A DNA stretch of 64,000 nucleotides from Pegea sp. RAD2-039. Taxonomy: Eukaryota > Chordata > Thaliacea > Salpida > Salpidae. The stretch lies in the NCBI GenBank assembly GCA_034620365.1, contig JAQGEQ010000175.1:372001-436000 (forward strand), written 5' to 3'. The notes under the pieces are model-generated. The model saw only the letters and a list, made by a program, of their open reading frames with translations. It was not told the origin of the DNA and ran no database searches. Both the position numbers and the translations under genes were made by a program. Shown piece by piece: positions 3,608 through 56,689 of this stretch. Each line of letters begins with the position of its first letter. Positions within the stretch are counted from its first letter, which is position 1.

Positions 3608-4445
3608 GTGCTTATTTATTTATCTACTTGTTACAATAAACGCAAAAGAGGGTGCCTAAAAAAAGCACCTGTCGCTAACACACATTCTCACAAATAATAT
3701 ACTCATTATATATTTCATCTTTTGCTTTCTATACTTCTAACTTAATAAATACTATTTGTGAGACTGTGTGTTAGTGAGAGGTGCCCTTTTCAAGACCCTC
3801 CTTCGCGTTTATAGTAATAAATTAATATAATTAAATTGGAAGTATAGAAAAAATAGATGTTACACATGGTATTCCAGTGGTAGTCATACAATATAACAGT
3901 GAATACTTTCATAGAACTTAAATATTATGAAATAAAGAAAAAGAATCATAGTTTAGAAATGACAAATGTAAAAATATTAGAACTTTAGCTTCAACAGCAT
4001 GAAAGATTTTGACATGACAATGTCTGATGGCAGTTGGTTCCAACTATTAACCGTCCTGTATGAGAAAAAATTTGCTCTAATTAAAGTACCAGGTGACATG
4101 GGCTTACCAAGGTGTATTGTGTGTTGTCTGAGTCGATGTAACTTGAGGGAAAGACTAATGGGAAAGAAATCATCGAACTGAATTAAATAGTGGATAAATT
4201 AAAAAATAAGAATTCAGTTGTATTTAATCCGTCGGATTTCCAAAGTATCCAAAAATAAAAACTAAGATGATGTTTATAACTATCATATTTAATATTAAGT
4301 TTCCTGCATACCAATCTCGTAAATGTTGCCTGAACAGATTCGATTTTTTGATATCACCAATTTGATATGGCATCCATGCACTGACATTATATTCAAGAAT
4401 TGGACGTACAAACAACTTGAAGAGGTTGATAAAGAAGTATGAATC
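3608..4445 (-). mobile_element. 5'-truncated LINE (CR1/L2/Jockey-like), 3' end copy 1
   Basis: Read on the minus strand, the piece begins inside the region after the reverse transcriptase with LFVRPILEYNVSAWMPY and DIKK. A frame change leads to IESVQATFTRLVC. Further on come DDFFSISPSLKLHR and RTVNSWNQLPSDIVMS, the typical C-terminal signature of CR1/L2/Jockey-type LINE polyproteins (WNxLPS). A 3' UTR follows, ending in a conserved tail (TGTGAGAATGTGTGTTAG ... CACCCTC...GTTTATTGTAA) and ATAAATAAATAA. The coding part is broken by at least one frameshift. The same 3' end recurs at about 51530-52070 and 58918-59145. A second, oppositely oriented tail sits inside it (3715-3830). Confidence 0.85.
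3637..3812. repeat. Inverted pair of LINE 3' tails (hairpin-forming)
   Basis: Arm 3637-3695 and arm 3754-3812 are imperfect reverse complements about 59 bp long, separated by about 58 bp. Both arms are the LINE tail motif in opposite directions. The plus-oriented arm is preceded by a short stretch also found before the tail in other copies (TTTCTATACTTC), so it looks like a second, heavily 5'-truncated LINE insertion (about 3715-3830) inside the tail of the minus-strand copy. Confidence 0.8.
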
Positions 4446-7400
4446 CTTAGAATTATAGATCTTTATAACAAAGTAAACAAAAATGATTGATTTTAGAAAG
4501 ATATTTGAGCCATTATTTGTAAAGTTAATATTTTATTTTTTATAATGATTATGATTAAAGTTGATTTTATTTTAGAACTGACCAAGAAATTTATATCAAT
4601 TTGATAGACTATATAGTTTAATTTTACAACAAAACAATAATTTTGAAGATGAAATACATGTTTTTTGTTAATTATTATAAATACTAATGGTGCAATTTCC
4701 TATTTCAGTTTTCTATTACATTAACTAATCTAGTTGAGATTTGATTTTTCTAATAACTTCACAATACTATAAATTTATCGCAATAAAACCAACAAACTTG
4801 TTAGTATATTATCTTTATGTAGTTTTGGATGAAATGTATATTCTAAAATTAGTAGATACAGGTGACTATTTATTCTTTATAATCTCAAAGATATATTAAA
4901 CAAAACTGCTAAGCTAGAATCTTTCTCACTGATTGTGATATTTGAAATTACAAAAATAACATTAGTAATTACTTATATTTATTTATGTAATTATGTCATA
5001 ACTACATATTTATTTATTATGTAATTTATGTAATATTAGTGTCATAATGAAAATACATTACTGATAAATTAGTAATATATTTTTCAATGTGGTGTTTTTT
5101 TGTTTCAAATCTTATGAGTTTCTATTGAAAATGCTGACTTTAATGACGCAGCAACTAAAGTAAGATTAATGTATGAGTAATTACTCACTTTAAAGTAAAA
5201 TATAAACAGACAATAAAACTTAAAACAATCTTTCAGGAGATTTAGTTTGTATTACTTTAATGATTTTTATGATTTAGACCTACTGAAAAGGAATTATGAG
5301 TTTTGTTAATTATAGTGATTTAAGATTTGTTCGGTTTTTTAACTAGCATGTATTAGTGTGAATATTTTTTCTGGTATACTAATGTTTAGTAAATATAAAT
5401 TGTTTTACTTTCTTATGCTTCAAATTATGTTCAGTATAGAATATGATACTAAGCTAATATTTGCTTAGAAGCAAGGTTAAACCGCATTTAAATCACAATA
5501 AAACTACAACTTTAAGTCATTCCAACAAACTTTGTTTTGTAGTAAATTTAACTGTCAAATGCTTTTTAATGTCAAATTAAACTAGATCATACTTTAAAAA
5601 AATCTTTTAGCTACAGGTTAAACTATTGACCTATAATGCTGTCATTCATGGAAAATCATTTCTTAAATATCATAGTTGTAGTTATTTATCTAAAAAATTA
5701 TTTTGTTTTTCTATTCATCAGTCATCATGTTAGCCTTTTTAACTTTGTAAATACAAAAAGGTGCATTTTCATAAGAAGTTAAGATCTGTAAAAGAGTTTT
5801 TAGATAAGACTGAAAAAAGAGTTCTTGCTTTATAAGCATAAAAAAGATTCAAACTTATTTGTATCAATGATAAATATTTAGTATTTTTTGAAATCATTTT
5901 ATTTGTTAAGAGATTATTATGCAAGCTTACATACTGTTGACAGATAAAAGATAGAAGTTTTTCTTAAATTTATAAAATGATAGGTGACAAGCGATGTCTT
6001 TTTATGTATAAAATGAAAAAGTATTTTTTATTTCTACAGTTATACGAGTTGTTTTATTCATTTCTACTTATTATATAAGACTTATACTTTATATTAAGTT
6101 ACTCTGAGATAACATTAAATAGTTTTATATAGATACTTTACATTAAGAAATAAGTTATATTGAGTTATATAAATCATGCGTAAAAAGCTCAACAAAGTCA
6201 GTCATTTTAACACGGAGTAAACTTTTAGAGTATTAAATAAGAATTTTTATAATCTTTTAAGACTCAAATGGTAAAAGTTCAAAGGTTAAAACTGAAAATG
6301 TTGTATGTTAAAACTTCTTAAACACATTAGTAAAGGTTAAATAAGATTCAACTTACACTTTGAGTCAGTAAAAATTCCCTAAATGAATTATTGGTTTGAT
6401 GTAAATGAACCAACTACTTTTTTAATAATCTACAACACACTACAAGTATTTGAACAAAGTCCACAAAAAAGTTTTCTAATTTGTCTATACAACTTTGTAT
6501 GAACTTGTTTATTCGAATATAGCTTTTAATGACAAAAGGTCAGTTTGTTTGTTACAATGATTATCATCACTCAATCAATAGTTTAAAAGATTTTTCTTGT
6601 TGTATGGCTGCTCGATAAGCAATTGTATATACGATTGAAACATGCCATTATTTCTATTACTACACGTTTGACTGTTTATTCATTTAATCATTAAAGTAAA
6701 CGTAAATAATATTACTGCAAATAGTACCAAACAATCTAGGAATTAAGCTTAAATAAATACTTCAAATATTGTTAATAAATTACTTCAACTTTTACCTGAA
6801 AGCGATTAAAAAAATTGAATTAGACTGTTCCTGTTTTTCAAGAAAAATTTATTTTATATCATTTGATCAATTCGTACAAAATGTAGAATGTAACCACCAA
6901 GAGAGTTTATGTAAAAAAAACTTTTTAAAACCTAAAAAATTATTTGATACTTTAGTATAGGTTTAAGTGTTTAAAGAAATATCTTTCTTAGCAAAACCAG
7001 ATATTATAGTCAAATATTTTCTGACATCTTCTTTAAATTTAAAACAGTTTATAAATCTTCCATTTTCAGGACTTTAAAATGCAAAATAAAGTATTTACTA
7101 GAAAAAAAATGTTAATACTAGAACATAATTTTAAAAAATAAGCGTTTAGTTGGAGAAATAGGGGTGTTTCAAATTATTTTTCCCACAAATATCTAATTTT
7201 GGTGAAAAAAAATTCTTACTCAAGATTTTTTAGTCAAATTTATCCTATAATCAAGCGTTTAAAAATTTTGTTTATTGAATTTTTCAGAAAACTTTATTTT
7301 AAAATTAAAAAATAAAGTTTTTAATTTCGAGAAGGCCATTGAAACATACTTAAGATTATCACAATCAAAATGCAATTTTTTTGTTATAAAAGTTCTTTGA

Positions 7401-31862: not shown

Positions 31863-34800
31863 TCATATATAGTTAAAATAGTCTTTGGCGTTATTTTCAA
31901 GGTTAATATTTAACGGTGGTGTACCAATAATCGGTTTCCCGTCTTTTGTGCTGCTATTATTTCGAAGAACAACTTGAATTGGAGGTAGAAATGCGTTTCC
32001 TCCATACCCACTACCATTACTTAAACGAACCTCTTGTGCGTTTGGGTAATTGCTACGACGTTGCTGTTCATTTAAGATTGCCTCGTCCAGACTTATAGAA
32101 GTTGCAAGATGACCCTTTATTTGAGGGCCTTTGTATTCTGGTGGAGGAGGGGGCGATGGTTGTCGATTTACAACTGGAAGAACTCCTCCGTCTAGTATCT
32201 CTGCATCTGAGATCTCATCAAAACGTGCTTTTGAGCTTGGTCTCCGCATCGCTTCTTGTTTTTTTCTCATAATTCGGTGGCGTCGAACCCCAAACTGAAT
32301 ATTCAAATTTTTTTGATGAAAACTTAACGAATTTGTAGAGAGAGAGTAGATACTGTGAATAATTTAAGATTATGTTTTGCTATAGAGGAAGTTTCAGATG
32401 TTATCTTGTCTTTAATCGTTTGATTATAACTTTTGTGAAATACAGATTTCTAAATCTAAAAATTGTTCAGCAATCGAAATAAAACAATGAATTTTGTTTC
32501 ATAGAACTGTTTCCTACTAAACCTTTTTTACAAATTTATTCATTTCAGTTTCAAGCTAACCGCTAAGCAAAATACTTTTATGGAAGATGGCACTAAACAT
32601 GTTTAAATTAAAAGTTCAAATAAACCCTTAAAAATAAGTTTATTTCAACAAAAATTATTTATTCAAATATTCTATTCTTAAAATCGTATATTGGAACAAA
32701 TCTATAGTTGATCGATGTATAAGTATTGGCAAAAGATTAAACTCTTTTCCTTATTCCAAGTTTTTTTTTCTCTTTTTCTTCATTCTACTAAGAGAAGATT
32801 TTGTGACATGTGAATGCATTGGACTGACATGCACAGTAACTAAGCTAAAATAGTTTAAATGTTTAAACAGAAAAGATTATTGGGCAAAAATACAGTAAAA
32901 AATTTGCTTACAATGCTAAAAAATTGCTGCCAAAAACACATAAGCCAAAGGTGTAAACTTAAACAAACCAAAACTACCAAGCTTCATTAGATTTGTACTA
33001 ATTTATTTCTGATAAACCAAACACAGCTGTTTCAAATGCTATTCTTGATTCAAAATAGAAATATATTTTTTTGTAGTCATCAAAGTTTTTACATTAGTGC
33101 TGAATGAATAGCATTAAGTAAAAAATAATTTGTTTACCTGCCATACCAAATAACAAAGCTCCACAATATTCAAAGAAGCACATATTATGGCAATGACAAA
33201 CATAAACCATAAGAATATGGTTTTTTCCATAGGTCTAGATACAAAGCAATCAATGGTGTTAGGACAGGGGTGCCCTTTGCATTTGTAGGTTTCTGGAATT
33301 CGAAATCCAAACATCGAGTACTGGAATACAATAAAAAGTTATTATTTTAAAAAGATTTATTACACAAGGTTTTTTTTCATGAATAATTGAATAAAGGTTA
33401 AATAAAAGATGTTTTAAAAATTAGCTATAAGTTTATATTTTGTGTAACTAAAAACTCTAATTCAAATTTTGTTTTCTTTCACGAATGCTTAAAAACTGGT
33501 TAGCAGTTTTATTGTAATGCAAAGCATTACATTAGGGTTTCACGAATTAAATTGCTAAATATCAAGTTTTAGTCAACGTAAAACCTTCTTAAAAATGCAG
33601 TTTGCATTTAATGTATCATCTTAGTCTCAACCAAAGCTGATTATGAACAAAATACTTTACATCATAAGATACTCAAAACAAGGTTTAAAAGATCTAAAAA
33701 AAGGCTTAAGCATAAGGTAAAAGAAAACATAAATCTAGAAGCATCTTGTGACTTGAGGTCTTTAGACTTACAAAGAGCAGTTATAATACTAACAATATAA
33801 AAATAAGCGTCTTATTAATTTGGTTGCTAGTAAATATCACAGAAAATCCTTGGGGAGACTGAAAATAACTAAATCCGACTTAACTAGAAGTTTATAATAT
33901 TATTTATTTACTTTAACCTTTTGGAATAAAACAGTTTTGTACTTATCTTTAGAATTTCTTTTTTAAAAGGATTTCTAAAACGGATTTTCGGAGCCATTCA
34001 ATCAAGTAATAAGTAATTGAACATATTTCTCATATGTCACACCAATTAGCTTTTAATTAGAAATTATTAAGCTTCTTACTTGTAAATAAATAAAACAAGC
34101 TTCTATTAATGTACGAGCAATCACAGAAAATGCGTAGAGAATATAGTTTTGACTAAAAGCGAGTTTTTCATCTCCAAACATTTCTTGTAACACCATCATG
34201 TTTAACTTCTTCTTTTCAGCCTCAGGGTCGTCGCTAACAGCAGATCGGACCTCCTTCAGGTGTCTGCTATTTGAAATTGAATTTAAAAGTATCATCAAAT
34301 ATTCGATTTTTGAATAAAAACTTTTCTTTGAAAGGTTACAAAAATTTCAAACCTAACTTTATCTTAATATTTTTAATGGATAGGTTTTTTCACATCCATA
34401 ATTTCCAAACTGCGATCTATTTTTATTAGTCAACTTATATTAGCAAGTCATATAGCAGAAGATAATGAATTATGGTCAAATTTTTTCAAGCTATGCAGTC
34501 AACCATGATATTCAAAGTATTGTTTACTGAATAGTATCTAAAGATTTCAAAAACCAAACATAAATATCTGTTTAATTTATTTTTAGTATCTTAATAATAA
34601 ATCATCTTTTTAAAGACACAAAGATGTTTGGTTAAAGTTATTATTAAAGAGATTTTTATCTTATCTTGTGGTTACTTTCATCTTTTGATTCATGTCTTTA
34701 TTTTAACAGAAAATCAATTTAGCAAAACTGTTTGAATAAAACTTTCTCAACTGCATGAATTAGTAAAAATAATATTTTCGTAATTAAATCTAATCGATTT

Positions 34801-37800
34801 TACTTCAGTTTTTTTTATTTATTGGAAAGCTTTCAGACATTACACGAAAAACATGAGGGTAAAAGCGATTAAACGAAGTAGGAAAACTTTTATATCAATC
34901 TTGTCGCAAGTGGATTTAAAACAAGAATAAAAAAACTGTCATAAAATTTCAGAAGGAACATTTTAATGGATACAAATTGTGTGTCTGTTTACCTTTTCTT
35001 TCGTTTCTTACCGTCCTCTCTATCTGAATCATCTGGTGATTTCTTAACCTAAAAAAAGAATTTATATTTTAAAATGTTGTTAATATTTGAGTATCTAATT
35101 TAAGTATGTCAAAAGTAGGAAATAGTTTACGTGTTTGAGTATTTGAAATTCATTCTGAGTTTTGTACAAATACTTAACCCAAAACTTATAATATAAGCAA
35201 ACTGTTTTAAGCTTTTTTTTTAACACCTTTCAAATATCTTTAAGTTTGGAATCAAATACCAAATTGCATGCTTCATGCTGGTGAAAGAACAATACATAAA
35301 AAAATAAAATACAAAATAAATGTAAAAATAAAAGATGCAGAACTACAATCATATAAGTTTTATAACAACTTGACTTCAACTCAAGTAGAAATTTCCAACT
35401 AGAAATTATCTTATAACAAAATTATGATTTAAAGAAACATAACTTGGTGTAATTTATTCAAATTTTTTCATCAATAAGTTTATTTGAAAATTTAGAATAC
35501 TAAAAGCTTACCTGGCTAAAAGCCAGTGCACTTAGCATAATTGCAAGATTTTGAAATTGAGTTATAAAAGTTATAAAAGAACAAAGAAAAAAAGTTTAGA
35601 AAATTTTAAAGGATTTTTCGAATTAAAGTTTCACTTTTACGCCACTGGACATTTAAAGTGGGACTTAAATACACAATTTATTTCCAAATTGAAATTAAGA
35701 ACCAGAATGGGTTTAATCAGACTCTTATAAAAATCATCATCAGATTTTTAGGGACTTCCTAAGAGTTTTTTTAGAAGTTGAATCGGTTCAAAAGCTCTTC
35801 CAACATCGAAACACCATCAACCAATCACATCAGTCAGCTGCATGCATTCACGCAGTTACGTGACGTCATCGGCATCGGGCGGTTCGCGCCGACGAACAAT
35901 GTTTCCGGTCAGTGAGGAGCTTCTCGATTTGCTATTTTGTTGCTTCCGACTTTCACCGTCACTCTGTAGAGTGGCCATTCGCTGGCCTACGACGTTGTTG
36001 GCGGTCTTCACCTGATGTGCAGAGTACACCATGAACATGATGGACGGAGTTGCCACCATAATGATCTGGAAGGACCAGAAGCGGATGTGGGACAGCGGCG
36101 AGAACTGGTTGAAGCAGACATTCGGGCAACCAGGCTAAAAAAAAATTTGATTAATTTTTTGGGCGAAATTGGATTTTGAGAATTTTTTTTTTTGAAATTA
36201 TTTTATAATAAATTGATTGGAATTACCTGATTGGTGTTGCATTTAAACTCGCTTTGCTCATCTGAATAAACACGATCACTAACGCTAGACACAACCACGA
36301 TTCGAAAAACAATCAGAAAAGTGATCCAAAATTTGCCGATAAGTGTTGAATGCTGGTTCACCTAGGTTTCAAGTTTATCTTTTTTAAATTTCTACTTAAA
36401 GCTGCTAATATTTAATAAATTTATTTTTAAAAGATGTTGGCGCGAACAGCGATCTTTTAGCTAGTAGTTTAGTAATTCCTACCGGACAGAAGTTTTTTAA
36501 AGATCCTTAAAAGCTAAAAAGATTTTTTTTAAACTTGGCTGTTTATCAATATCTCTCATAACTACTCAAGTGTTTATATTAATTGAATTTTTTGAAAGAA
36601 AATGAAAATAAAACAGCAAAAATAGACTTATCAATAGTTGTATCAGTTTATTCACAAGCTTGAAATTTGATAACAATAAAATACAATTTGAATATTACTA
36701 GAGAATCTAGATAAACATACTAAATTATTATTTGTTTAAAAAAAAGCTTTTAAAAATTTAATCTAATCGGTCCATTAATCTTTTTAATAAAAGTATTTTT
36801 GAAAGTATTTATTTGATTAGTAATAAAAGTTAATTAAGATATTATAAGGTGCTTTTGTAAGTTTATAGAAATTGTAATTATTGAACTGAATGTCAAGTTT
36901 GAATTAATCACTTCAATTTTAAACATTGTCACAAAATTTTAGTTCATTAATGATTGCTAGAAATTAACATTTTGAATTATTTGGTTTATAGGTTAAGTTA
37001 TTAAGTTAAAGTCTGTTTAATATAAAAAAACAGCTTTTGTTTAACAAACTGGTCATTATATAGTCTTGGCCGACATCAAGTACAAAGTTATAAATAAAAC
37101 AAATTTATAGTTTTAGTAACATTTTATAAAAACTTATTTTATCTATAACAATTCATTTTTCAGGTAAATTTCATATTTGTATAAAAGATTTTTGCAATTT
37201 TCATTTTCATAATTGCTTTGATTTTGTATAAAAAAAAATAAAAGAAAACTTTTCTGTAAAATAACTTGCTGGTTATTGTGTTATTATATGCTTTGAAGAA
37301 GTTGAAAAGAAACACTCTAAATGTTAGTTAAATTTATTTGTATAACTTTAGTTTGTTAAACTTACATCTACTGGAAACCAACAAAACTGTTTTATGATTT
37401 TTGTAATTAAAAAGCTGGTCAGTAAAATGAATTTCAAAGTTTGATTTTATTTATCTTAGGTATCAAATTATCTAGCTAATAATTGTTTGATTCTTATCTA
37501 AATGCATAATGTTTCTTGATTAAGCGGTTCTTTAGTTGAAAAAAGTCTGCTAAAATTGTTGCTAGTATTCTTAAAGTTAGTCGAGTAAATGAAAAGTAAT
37601 ATAGAACTTTTATTGAAACCCTTTAATTTAGATTTAAAGTTAACTATTTAAGAGAGAATAAGTTTTTTAATAAATCTTTAGATGGAATTATTTATTTTTT
37701 TCTTTAGTGTACAAAATTAATAAATGAAAATCACTTTTTAATGGCATAGTAAAAAGAATATTTTCTTTTAACTTCCTAGTCACACTAACCTTTACAAGAA

Positions 37801-37947
37801 ATAAAGTTAGTCAAATTTTGTCAAAATTCAAATATACAAGATTTATAAACTCAATAAAATTCTATATAATGTAAATTACAATAATTGGAATTAAATTAAT
37901 TGAAGTATCACCTTCTGAAGCCATCTTTCGACAAAATGCCATGACAT
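31863..37947 (-). CDS. Connexin (gap-junction channel protein), seven coding exons, 383 aa
   Basis: Four-pass protein forming connexon hemichannels in the plasma membrane. Exons: 37912-37947, 36227-36361, 36012-36134, 34993-35048, 34080-34266, 33138-33320 and 31863-32294, with phases consistent throughout. The N-terminus [12 protein letters not shown] joins [12 protein letters not shown], as in vertebrate connexins. Extracellular loop 1 has [19 protein letters not shown]: cysteines at about 53, 60 and 64 in C-x6-C-x3-C spacing, followed by PLSHIRFW. Loop 2 has [15 protein letters not shown]: cysteines at about 193, 198 and 204 in C-x4-C-x5-C spacing, followed by [10 protein letters not shown]. 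Residue numbers are almost those of human Cx43. TM segments lie at about 21-41, 75-95, 155-178 and 208-233; the cytoplasmic loop is Lys/Asp-rich and the 143-residue tail has a poly-proline run. The first exon is 12 codons only. Exon 3 is strikingly GC-rich and stays open past its donor. No innexin signature, so not a pannexin/innexin. Confidence 0.95.
35856..36011 (-). other. Open GC-rich extension of connexin exon 3 (possible alternative end exon)
   Basis: Beyond the donor CAG/GTGAAG at 36011 the frame stays open for 51 codons ([20 protein letters not shown] ...) to a TAA at 35856. Base composition here is about half G+C, as in the exon itself and unlike the flanking introns, and the peptide is Ser/Arg-rich like a cytoplasmic tail. 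If read through, it would give a protein of about 149 residues ending after the second membrane segment. An in-frame alternative donor GTC/GTAGGC also lies within it. Confidence 0.45.
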
Positions 37948-40900
37948 TTTTTCCAATCAAACAAACAAGCCAAGGATTTAGTAAGAGACTTCAGTCAGTA
38001 TCGGAATATAATCATCATGTCTTTAATTTGTTTGAAACTTTACAAGTATGTGACTTAATATAAGAAAATATTCTATAAATCTGAAAAATATTAAATTTAT
38101 TATTGATCTGTGATAAATTACTTGTAAGAATTGAAATTTGTAAAATTCAATAAAGTTGATATAAGTTTTAAAAAATGTTGAATTTAAATAAAAGCTAAAT
38201 GATATAAGATAATTAATGAAATGATATAACTAATAAATGTTTAAAAAATTGTATTTATTAAAGTGGTGATATATGATTGTTTGTTTTAGCTTGTATGAAG
38301 AATTTGAACACCTTGTGATTTTTAAATACTTACTTTGAGTTACTTTCTCTTCAATATTTAAAGCAGCAATTTTTAATTTTAATGGATAAGTAAATTTTGA
38401 CAAAAAAGTCAAGAAAATATTTCACAAAATCGAATAAAAATCAATTATAAAAGAATTGCTGATTCAACGTCAAAACCAAATTGTTTATTCAAATCGATAC
38501 ATACAACTTTAAACTTACACGGCTCACTAATTATCAATAAGTATGTCTCAAAGATGTCGATATTTTATGTACTTGGTATTATAGCTGATGCTAATATATG
38601 ATAATATTTCCATAATAAATTACGCTATTTTCATTATTTCTTAGATTTATTATAATAATTATCATATGATTTGTTTTGAAGTTGGTTTTTAGCACTACAC
38701 TATTAACTTTTGATGACGTAATTGTTCTTCATCCGCCTTATGTCAATCTTGGCTGGAGCAATTATTGATTAATTGGTATAATCTACTTGATTAAAATCCA
38801 CTAGACACTAAAAATACTATATAATAAATCTTCAAGATTTGAATAAAATCTTAATTATCAAGGAATTTCTTATTAGTAAATTTCAGATTGAAATTTAAAA
38901 TAATTTTTGCTGTTTAGTTTATTGTTGGAAACAATTAAACCGTTTTTAAGTACTTGAGACTAAAAATTATGTTTTTGGTTGATAAGTTATAACTTTTGTT
39001 GTTAATTTTTTTGTTTAAAGGTTTATATTGCTTAAATTGCAGTATAAAATACTTAAACCATAATAAGTAGATATTTATGATATATATAATGAATATATAA
39101 AAGTTGAACAATATCCTATAAATAGAATTTATCTATAAATATAATGAGATATATTGTAAAAATTAATGAAGTATAACAGATATAAACAAATCATCAATAA
39201 ATAATTCTCAAAAATGTTACAAAAACAGATCGATACAACACTAAAAATACTGAAAGGGTCAATTTGTCTCATTTTCTAAAAGATGTACTTATATCAACTC
39301 ATCGAAAAAAACTCAGTTAACTTTTACTTTATAAAATCGGATTGACTTTGTATTAATCTCTAATGAAAAACTTTTCATTAATATAAAATAATCTTAAAAT
39401 TACTAAAAAAGTCTTTCTTAGACCATTAAATGTGTAATTTGATTAAATTAACTGAAGTTACGCTTTCACTGAATTAAAAAATGTTTTATATCTACGTTTT
39501 TATCAATCTTTTCCAACTGTTATTTCCATTTATAAAATTATTTTTTATTTATAGAACTTTTATGGATTATTTTAAGAGTTTTATTAACTCAATTAGTTAT
39601 TTTCAAAAATAATTTGGAAAATTATGTGAGCTAAATATTAAAAAGCTTTTCAATTCAATCTCTATACATCCAACATAATGGCACGATACAAAAAAAAACA
39701 TCTATAATTTATAAAACAATTTATTCTAATAGCTTAGCTGTTTATTCAGTTTTATTTTGTTGGTAAGTCATTCTTGAATAATTTCACATTCATACTTAAA
39801 CTCTTATTTTTTTAAACCAAAACCAACGACAAATGAAATATCGAATAGAGAAATCGATATCTGCATTCGGTTCGCCATCATCTATTGATACAATGTAAGC
39901 AGGTAAAACTATTTTCTCTAAGTCGAAAAAACGTTAAATAAATCCTGGCAACAACGAAACCAAGACTTGGAAATAAAATTATTTTTAGAACTATTGATTT
40001 GTTGAAATTTTGATTTGAATAATACTAAAGAATTTTTGGAAACTTTTTTGTATAAAAAGTTCTCTTATAAATTTGTTTTCAGATTTAAAGTCCTAATTTT
40101 TAAAAGAAAAACAACATTTTTCATTCTTGACAATTCCAAGTAAATATATTTCTAGATCTGACACTAGAAAAAAATCAATAAGAGTTAAATGATAACAGTC
40201 AATTTGTTTTTTATACAAGCACAATGACCTTTTTTGTGAATGATTGTTAATTATGAAAGGTGTAACTCTAATATAAAGAAAAAAACAAACAATTTATTTT
40301 AACTTAAAAAGAAACTGAACGAAAAACCATTTGTAGTATTGATCGTACTTTTAAAAGCAATAACGAAGTGCCCTTAGTACTGGCAAATATTTCAAGAAGT
40401 TTTGAATAAAACATTTCTTTTAGAGTTTGAAGAGAAATCTTTTATCAGTAAAACGAGTAAAAACTTCCTTCACTTCAAAAAAACTACATATTATTTAACT
40501 TTAAAGCTTGAATTTCAACTTCCAGTCTGTGATAGAAATTAACTTATTTGAACTTCTATTTGAAACAAATTACAGTTGATTTACAAGCCTTGGTCTTGTA
40601 TTTTTATTCTTGTAAACGTCTTTATTTCTTACAACGAGAAGGCTTTTATTTAAACGGATGACCAAAAAACAGTTTTTAGTTTAATAATATTACTAAATGT
40701 TTTTTAACAACATGTAACAAACAATTCGTTTACGTTTAATTGAAATTAGATAATTTTATTTCTTTTGCTTTTAGCATGACAGGTATTCAAAAACAAAATC
40801 TTAAAGAAGCTTGCTAATGATCGGTAGATACAAGAGTATAAAAGTTTCAATTACCGTTTCATTAATAGTAAAAATATTTTTTAAATCATTTGCAAAATTC

Positions 40901-53903: not shown

Positions 53904-55013
53904 TCACTTGTTATGGCCTCTTGCAAAATGACAAGCAAACTTGTGCCGGTCACCACAATCCAATCCACACACATTACATTGAAAAGGATTATCACATCCA
54001 TGACAGCCCATATGAATTGTATACATAACAAAATCACGAAATATAATTCCACAATGTTTACATTCATTTGTTCTATATTCTTCTTCATTGTCTGTTTGAC
54101 ATGAAATATCATGAGCTAAACCATTTAATGATTTATTCTTTTCATTTTCTGTTGTAGATCTATCTCGGTCAGTGTCACCGTCCATGTTTATACTTGAAAT
54201 ATCAGAATATAAAAGTGAACTTTTAAAAGATTGCTTCAAAGAAAACAGATCATTTTGAGAGTAATCTATAGGATTACTGATATCTTTAGAAATATCATAA
54301 GGTGATGTAGTAGCTTTTTCATTAATATCTCTTGATGAACTAACACACAGTACTTTTGGAAAACCTGAACCACTATCTTCATTCATGGGTTTTGCTGATG
54401 TACTAAATGCATTAGGTTGATAAACCATAGTGGGTAAGTCATTTGAGATATAATTAGATGGCAAGTAAGCTGTTGAAGGTTCAGAAAGATCAGTCAGTTT
54501 ATCATCTGAATTAGCATTATAAGACTGCTCTTCTGATAACTGATTGCCTTGATAATCAGAACCATCAATTATTATGGAGTCATTATATAAAGTATAAAAA
54601 CGGTTTTTGACAGTATTCTTAGATAAAGAAATTCTCTGCCGTTTTTGCTGAGAATTTGTTGAATGAGCATTATACAAAGCTAAACTAGTTGTATGTTTCC
54701 TTCTTCTATGACTGTTTAAATTACTTTTATCACTAAATGGTCTTGAACAAAACTCACACCTAAAAGGTTTTTCACCAGTATGTCGTCTCATATGTACACG
54801 AAGGTTACCTGGGTAAGCTGAACTAAATGGACATTTTACACAGGAGTAGATATTCTTGACTTTTTTAGTGTTATCTTCAGTTGAAACAGAATTGATTGGT
54901 TGCATCAACCCATTTGTTACACTATTACTTGTATCTTGAACATTTCGTTCTTCAGAAGGGTCAATCGGGACAGAACAGCTATTATCAGAGTTACTCATTT
55001 TGCTATTCACCAA
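53904..55013 (-). CDS. Ikaros-family C2H2 zinc-finger transcription factor, 369 aa
   Basis: Nuclear DNA-binding protein with two N-terminal and two C-terminal C2H2 fingers. Finger 1 uses C58, C61, H74, H78 (YSCVKCPFSSAYPGNLRVH) and finger 2 uses C86, C89, H102, H107 (FRCEFCSRPFSDKSNLNSH), joined by the TGEKP linker. The C-terminal pair uses C318, C321, H334, H338 and C346, C349, H362, H367: ECKHCGIIFRDFVMYTIHMG and PFQCNVCGLDCGDRHKFACH. Mid-frame FxxxVMYTIHMGCHG and the final finger are the dimerisation-finger signature of Ikaros/Helios/Eos/Pegasus. Between the pairs lies a Ser/Asn-rich linker of about 200 residues. Two DNA-binding fingers, fewer than most Ikaros proteins, recall Pegasus-like or divergent members. 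The coding sequence here is one exon; upstream coding exons adding fingers cannot be excluded, though a Met at residue 1 and another at 6 give plausible starts. Confidence 0.9.
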   Translation of the reverse strand: MVNSKMSNSDNSCSVPIDPSEERNVQDTSNSVTNGLMQPINSVSTEDNTKKVKNIYSCVKCPFSSAYPGNLRVHMRRHTGEKPFRCEFCSRPFSDKSNLNSHRRRKHTTSLALYNAHSTNSQQKRQRISLSKNTVKNRFYTLYNDSIIIDGSDYQGNQLSEEQSYNANSDDKLTDLSEPSTAYLPSNYISNDLPTMVYQPNAFSTSAKPMNEDSGSGFPKVLCVSSSRDINEKATTSPYDISKDISNPIDYSQNDLFSLKQSFKSSLLYSDISSINMDGDTDRDRSTTENEKNKSLNGLAHDISCQTDNEEEYRTNECKHCGIIFRDFVMYTIHMGCHGCDNPFQCNVCGLDCGDRHKFACHFARGHNK

Positions 55014-56689
55014 ATAACCAAATAGTAAACAACTACTTAAAATTATAGAATAAGAAATGAATTAGATGTTTTTTATAATCTTAAAAATCTCTTATTTTAT
55101 ATTAAGATTAAGTTATATAAGCATCAAATAATGTCAGTTATTTAAAGATAAAAATATAAATACAATGAGTTTTTAAACCAATCATATAAATGATATAATA
55201 AAAGTTAAAGCAAAAATATTAAACAATTATCAAAATTATTTGAGTAAGTCTATAAGGCTTAAAACTAAACATTAGAATATCATAGAAAATAAATTCATAA
55301 AAACATGTTTTAATATTATAAACTAATACCACTCTTAATGCATGATGAAATATAAATAAATATAATAAGTATAAAGATTAATAAAGTTGTATAATACATC
55401 AAGTATATAAGAAACAAAAACAGATATAAGATTTTTATAATATTTACATAATGAATCAATGTTAGTATAAACTAAATAGAAACAATTATTTTACTATAAA
55501 ACATAAATCAAAAAAAAATAGAACAAGAAAAAAAGTTAATGTAATAAATAAAAATATCCAAAGTAAAAATAACAACTATTTTATAACAGCTATCAGTTGC
55601 AAGGCATTGAAGATTTATTAAATATATGTAATGGTTAAAATTAATTTGTAATTTAATCTATTATAAATATTGTTTATTTTTTTATCAATTACAGAAGTAT
55701 ATCTTAGCTACATTTAAAGATGACTTTGCTAAATAAAACTATATCCACCATACATATCTATTTAAATATATTAATTATTAAATCAAAAATTTAGAAATAA
55801 AAAAAAACTAATTATAAACATTTCAAAATATAATGATTAATTTTTCAATGAAATCATTCACATTTAATTATTAAAATGTTTTTTAAAGTTTTACCAAAAA
55901 AATGTACCAAAAAGCTAGTTTACGTTTCTTTGTTATGAACTCAGCATATGCAATTTTATAACCAGTCTCGCCAAATAAAGAGAACCAGTACCTACGTTTC
56001 AAAGAACAAATGTTTGTTAGTTAGTGCCTTGTGCAAAAATTTTACTTTAGCAAATACCATGCTGGATTTTTTCAAGAATTTATTAGGTTAAAAATTAAAA
56101 ATAACCCTTTGTATATCATTGCTAAGTCTAACTGTCAAACAAAGCGACCTGGTGAATTTAAAGTAAAAATAGCTTTTATAAAGTGTTCATATGCTTAAAA
56201 GAGAGTCAAATTATCTGAAATATATATTAATGCACCAAAGCATGGTTTTTAAAGTTACATTAAAAGCTTTAGGTGGGCGATAAAATGGTCTAGTAATCAG
56301 ATAAGCAGGAAATTCGTTAATTTGTTCGTACATCATTATATTATTGACAGTACTTTAAGGTTTGAAGATAGAGAATGAGAAATGCTAAAGAAATAAACAA
56401 CTAAGAACGATGCACTGAGAAAGAGTAAAGTGCACGAAGGAATATCCAGTGGTGTTTTTCACAGGGTGTAATAAAAGCAATTGTAGAATTAATAGTAATT
56501 TTATATTAGTAGAATTTATACTTTTGTTGCACTTTCCACTTTTCTTTGCAGCGTGAAGAATGCTTATAGAAATAAATAAATGCAAAATGGTAATTCTGAC
56601 TTTGAGATTCAAATATGGTCTAATGAAAAACTACTTACCACTCGTTGAAAAGAAATACATTTCTTACTATTACTTAATAAATTTGCCAT
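55014..56689. other. AT-rich stretch upstream of the Ikaros-like gene
   Basis: No gene recognised. Presumably contains the promoter and possible 5' exons of the zinc-finger gene. Confidence 0.4.

Follow-up and report, generated by a model that had tools for sequence, protein, structure and literature searches.

An intron-split connexin gene in a genome that is very probably that of a tunicate

The coding region of vertebrate connexins lies mostly in one exon. A first-pass annotation of the DNA analysed here (a window of 64,000 nucleotides, C258:372001-436000, in an assembly of 105.7 Mb and 387 contigs) had described an intron-split connexin of seven exons, which raises the questions of whether a gene divided in this way is a genuine connexin, how its introns arose and in which animal it resides.

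The connexin gene and its exons

The gene occupies positions 37947-31863 of the minus strand and has seven exons with six GT-AG introns, the exons joining in frame to give 1152 nt that encode 383 amino acids and a stop codon. The seven exons first proposed thus rejoin in frame with every intron GT-AG, and the join exactly reproduces the 383-residue protein reported with them. The features of the locus are as follows:

38081..38095, minus: candidate splice acceptor TTTAATATTTTTCAG, 133 bases 5′ of the start codon, from an acceptor scan
37912..37947, minus: exon 1, 12 codons from the start codon onward, N-terminal helix; the counterpart in paralogue C85 is unbroken
36362..37911, minus: intron 1, a phase 0 intron of 1550 bp between codons 12 and 13
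36227..36361, minus: exon 2, remaining N-terminus, TM1 and first part of the E1 loop
36012..36134, minus: exon 3, E1 cysteines (GCPNVC) and TM2
35859..36011, minus: possible continuation of exon 3, with a frame open over 51 codons (GC 0.55) as far as the TAA at 35858-35856
35512..35530, minus: possible 19-nt microexon of a 440-aa alternative, weakly supported
34993..35048, minus: exon 4, cytoplasmic loop
34080..34266, minus: exon 5, cytoplasmic loop and TM3
33138..33320, minus: exon 6, E2 loop (C-x4-C-x5-C, SRPMEKT) and TM4
31863..32294, minus: exon 7, cytoplasmic C-tail with PPPPPEY (which we take to be a PPxY-type motif) and stop codon

The window gene is a genuine connexin cut into seven coding exons. 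Against the connexin profile PF00029 the 383-aa model scored 295.8 bits (Pfam cut-off 31.3), the match covering 225/225 positions. A PDB search with the 440-aa variant, which differs from the 383-aa model in the cytoplasmic loop only, gave Cx46 as best match (E 8.7e-55) with a Cx36 fusion construct at 5.8e-54, and the 34 distinct sequences found at E <= 0.001 were all named as gap junction proteins or fusions thereof. Both connexin cysteine signatures that had been read in the protein are present, the E1 loop being CNTNQPGCPNVC with the spacing C-x6-C-x3-C and the E2 loop having C-x4-C-x5-C. The product would cross the membrane in four helices and expose two extracellular loops laced by disulfides, with six subunits predicted to assemble into a connexon that would dock via E1 and E2 with the connexon of a neighbouring cell to form a gap-junction channel. 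With all seven exons open, both cysteine signatures intact and canonical splice sites, a pseudogene or a non-channel relative is a highly improbable reading. The connexin gene is presumably expressed. The acceptor-like sequence TTTAATATTTTTCAG, one among four such sites from the scan, may serve for cis-splicing or for spliced leader (SL) trans-splicing.

The neighbours named in the first-pass annotation were all matched within the window: MED23 in exons in three frames (45.3-47.3 bits), CDK9 (E 2.7e-49) and, at the window edge, a KIF1A-type kinesin (E 7.4e-22). Near the connexin gene HSP20 was matched at 24.2 bits (cut-off 20.8). The longest open frame in the window (385 aa, 53904-55061, minus strand) encodes C2H2 zinc fingers, while an open frame at 4224-4532 on the minus strand, which has no Pfam match, contains VRPILEYNVSAWMP, a stretch that is presumably reverse-transcriptase-like.

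The junction between exons 3 and 4

The sole uncertain junction is that between exons 3 and 4, where the join of 36012 to 35048 has the best splice sites and would give the 383-aa product, which is probably the correct model. Exons of the window gene and of nine further connexin genes from this genome were modelled with a spliced aligner, and a position model of donors and acceptors was built from 27 introns in the homology-anchored parts of nine genes, the window gene included. The donor at 36012 (CAG|GTGAAG) scored 7.1 and is in phase with the acceptor at 35048 (score 9.1). Models of 432 and 440 aa, which were built first, were dropped in favour of 383 aa after splice-site scoring favoured 36012. 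In these longer models exon 3 extends to 35865 or 35860, making the cytoplasmic loop some 50-57 aa longer, and the stretch 35859..36011, an intron in the 383-aa model, is coding; the 440-aa form passes through the 19-nt microexon. A longer main product gains some credit from the 51 codons that stay open past 36012, from the high GC of the exon that the continuation retains (0.55 versus 0.26 for the window) and from a weak likeness to the C85 loop (p = 0.008 by shuffling, in one test on low-complexity sequence), but its donors (-4.8 at 35865 and 2.0 at 35860) fall under the range of 2.7-12.2 scored by the 27 homology-anchored donors, and the fit to PF00029 is slightly better for the 383-aa model, the 440-aa variant scoring 289 bits. 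Nor does the continuation resemble exon 3 in composition, with CpG that is not depleted (16 observed, 11.5 expected, versus 5 and 8.3 in exon 3) and GC that is flat across codon positions. The evidence that the continuation may be coding is mixed on these sequence features, and a longer main product is unlikely. Two further donors, at 35957 (3.2) and 35951 (2.9), would need an extra exon to be brought into phase with exon 4, and the best small exon that could be added after donor 36012 (18 nt, 35277-35260) has good sites with nothing else in its favour.

The same continuation might act as an alternative last exon, its frame being open to the TAA at 35858-35856, and would then yield a truncated connexin of 149 aa with two helices. 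By a rough estimate open frames of 51 codons are not uncommon at a GC of 0.55, and this product is very unlikely.

Of all 275-base stretches in the window, the one with exon 3 has the highest GC (0.545 versus a mean of 0.264). The only 275-base stretches in the window with GC >= 0.5 fall at 35771-36155, a patch that takes in exon 3 and about 240 bases of intron, is CpG-rich past the donor and carries the palindrome TGACGTCA. The possibility that the patch is a copied element was rejected, as a genome search with it found itself only.

Connexin paralogues in the genome

A genome search with PF00029 gave at least 54 exon matches, the 54 matches falling into 32 clusters at 4.5 kb, one of which (C3:450k) comprises two genes. 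The 18 clusters that were read consist of nine with canonical connexins (ten genes with the window gene), seven with genes that have a longer E2 loop (long-E2 genes) and two loci on C12 (L032 at C12:842965 and L033 at C12:958616), where E1-like pieces such as YHDELSEFKC in L033 gave no connexin gene model. All nine other canonical genes have an M[AGST]W start and the E1 spacing C-x6-C-x3-C; the E2 spacing C-x4-C-x5-C is present in eight of them (9/10 with the window gene), the exception being C3a, in which E2 was not recovered and which was excluded from all three trees for that reason.

The closest kin of the window gene is the paralogue on C85 (25806-29293), the two being grouped at 97/96, 99/97 and 96/96 in the three trees and identical at 116 of 184 core positions. 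Over the same 184 positions the window protein shares 70-89 with the seven other canonical rows and 73-86 with five vertebrate connexins such that, C85 aside, it is no nearer to the canonical paralogues than to the vertebrate proteins. The C85 gene lacks the intron at codon 12 and its remaining introns differ from those of the window gene. Across the paralogues a many-exon structure appears to be ordinary for the connexins of this genome.

The seven long-E2 genes (L034-L040, in order C191, C245:270k, C30:1189k, C258:2109k, C262:1042k, C262:147k and C18) resemble the window gene in belonging to the PF00029 family and in keeping the E1 spacing C-x6-C-x3-C (7/7), but differ from it in having extra residues between TM3 and E2 and re-spaced E2 cysteines, C-x8-11-C-x11-16-C in all seven versus the canonical C-x4-C-x5-C. 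The four proteins submitted to PF00029, three of them hand-assembled, scored 135.7-173.9 bits. All seven have an exon 2 of 91 nt and an exon 3 of 113 nt, and the clade shares further introns, for example after residues 43 and 80. The models were built with a query taken from one of the loci and are approximate in their loops and ends. In the first tree six of the seven rows were hand-assembled from two models per locus, with the C262a row omitting a 12-residue stretch present in one model, and for this reason a second tree was built from the models as they stood; the clade was supported at 100/100 in both trees, with C191 forming a long branch in each. When the long-E2 rows were added, their point of attachment differed from that of the vertebrate rows, and the canonical rows consequently lay on one side of a branch in only 0% and 2% of 200 bootstrap trees.

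The genome may hold two deeply separate connexin lineages, a canonical one and a lineage-specific long-E2 expansion in which the cysteines are re-spaced and a many-intron structure is conserved, and may in addition have lost its innexins completely. This reading is tentative, and our judgement leans slightly against it. Were it true, the long-E2 lineage would escape surveys that demand the usual cysteine spacing, and its proteins may dock only among themselves or act as undocked hemichannels. A further clade in which the E2 loop is altered is relevant to the evolution of docking specificity. The vertebrate-centred survey of Mikalsen et al. states that predicted sequences without proper cysteine patterns were excluded (PMC7914757). 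Among the matches listed in a search of the open-access literature no title concerned the structure of connexin genes in tunicates or an E2 that departs from the standard; that literature being partial in scope, the long-E2 clade is not claimed here as unpublished.

The intron at codon 12/13

The first exon of the window gene, 12 codons long, had been described as easily missed. The junction that follows it, 37912/36361, is backed by homology since the C85 paralogue reads MSWHFLERWLEKTNQHSTLLGKFW unbroken across the corresponding position. The exon is real, as the phase 0 acceptor at codon 13 recurs in all seven long-E2 genes, where an AG immediately precedes the position corresponding to residue 13 and its distance from the conserved [HY][STG]T motif is the same. 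A short first exon starting with Met is found upstream in six of the seven; the first exon proposed for the seventh, C191, lies 2.9 kb away without a Met and is not credible.

The intron was found in none of the nine other canonical genes, all of which are unbroken at this position. That it is unique to the window gene was rejected, as the second clade has an intron at the same position. A recent mobile insertion is likewise unsupported, a genome search with intron 1 (E <= 0.001, very common words skipped) returning its own copy and no second one. It is more likely that intron 1 is an old intron held in common with the long-E2 clade and lost later in other genes than that it was gained recently. 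A parallel gain at codon 12/13 is possible, with a rough estimate of its chance at 2-3%.

Tunicate markers and the source of the DNA

The first-pass annotation took the gene to point to a tunicate, and the rest of the assembly bears this out. A cellulose-synthase glycosyltransferase (GT2) domain at C14:72138-72908 scored above the cut-offs of three profiles (PF13632 62.6, PF13641 39.8 and PF03552 31.3 bits). It is accompanied by a GH6 match at C14:74494-74718 (27.5 bits when the genome was searched, 26.8 in Pfam as a single frame; cut-off 27) and a second GH6 piece under the cut-off at C14:75434-75742 (21.9 bits). The GT2 domain, hydrophobic stretches and GH6 pieces lie on one strand in the order of tunicate CesA and may belong to one transcript. 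CesA is described as present in every sequenced tunicate genome and absent from other metazoan genomes (PMC6523144).

The spliced leader of Ciona is reported as the 16-nt sequence ATTCTATTTGAATAAG (PMC7986045). Exact matches to this leader with GT added (ATTCTATTTGAATAAGGT) number 99 and lie on 40 contigs, versus none for the reversed control. A tandem array on C4 (C4:1135044-1142219) has a unit of about 199 bases, its first eight copies lying 198-200 bases apart. In seven of the eight loci read the SL sequence stands outside any array, alone before other sequence; at L021-L027 it is followed by GTTAT or GTTTT, as if on dispersed repeats. The Sm motif AGCTTTGG, described for the Ciona SL RNA (PMC7986045), was found within 50 bases in none of the 15 SL copies at the eight loci.

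The source organism is very probably a tunicate, in which the presence of connexins is expected, and the best explanation of the window gene, which we regard as very likely, is that it is a tunicate connexin gene. A connexin in a non-chordate animal, the alternative previously described as much more surprising, finds no support in a genome with these markers. Genome searches found neither CesA nor an SL copy on the window contig C258, and the link to tunicates consequently runs through the assembly, which might also be expected if tunicate DNA contaminated the assembly of another organism. The COX1 search of the assembly, which gave no match, could be read in the same way; this search gave matches in 8 of 14 control genomes. 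In the tunicate mitochondrial code AGR is read as Gly. The CesA-type gene, however, lies on a contig of 1.0 Mb, the SL copies are spread over 40 contigs, and on C3 and C28 an SL copy occurs together with connexins; the window contig measures 2.6 Mb and C3 4.5 Mb. Both the non-chordate and the contamination readings are extremely improbable.

Comparison with known connexins and innexins

Connexins are described as occurring in tunicates and vertebrates and not found in lancelets, with Ciona listed as having pannexins (PMC6391747), and one innexin is reported for most tunicates (PMC8769644). The innexin profile PF00876 gave no match in the assembly at E <= 0.001 or at E <= 10, and the controls were likewise silent. 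A match to human PANX1 at C249 (18.4 bits, E 0.04, two stops) was on reading due to chance and not an innexin. The absence of innexins from the genome is a lead only; should the lack of innexins prove real, connexins would be all that this chordate has to rely on.

The window protein has in common with the vertebrate connexins Cx46, Cx36, Cx26, Cx32 and Cx43 the MxW-type N-terminus, both cysteine spacings and SRPxEKT, but is encoded in seven coding exons, versus mostly one in vertebrates. The nearest vertebrate row to it is Cx36. All rows of the trees were chosen as connexins and as such the trees place the window gene within the family only. In the tree without the long-E2 rows the five vertebrate rows form their own group versus the genome rows at 99/99, and on this sequence comparison the window gene would not be orthologous to any vertebrate class. 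In this it is like the connexins of tunicates, which are reported to fit no vertebrate subfamily (PMC7914757); the likeness to these ascidian proteins, the lack of affinity with a vertebrate subfamily, is one of published description and not of sequence. The window gene adds an intron-rich tunicate connexin to the known family, in which intron positions may serve as markers of early connexin history beyond what the fast-evolving sequences offer.
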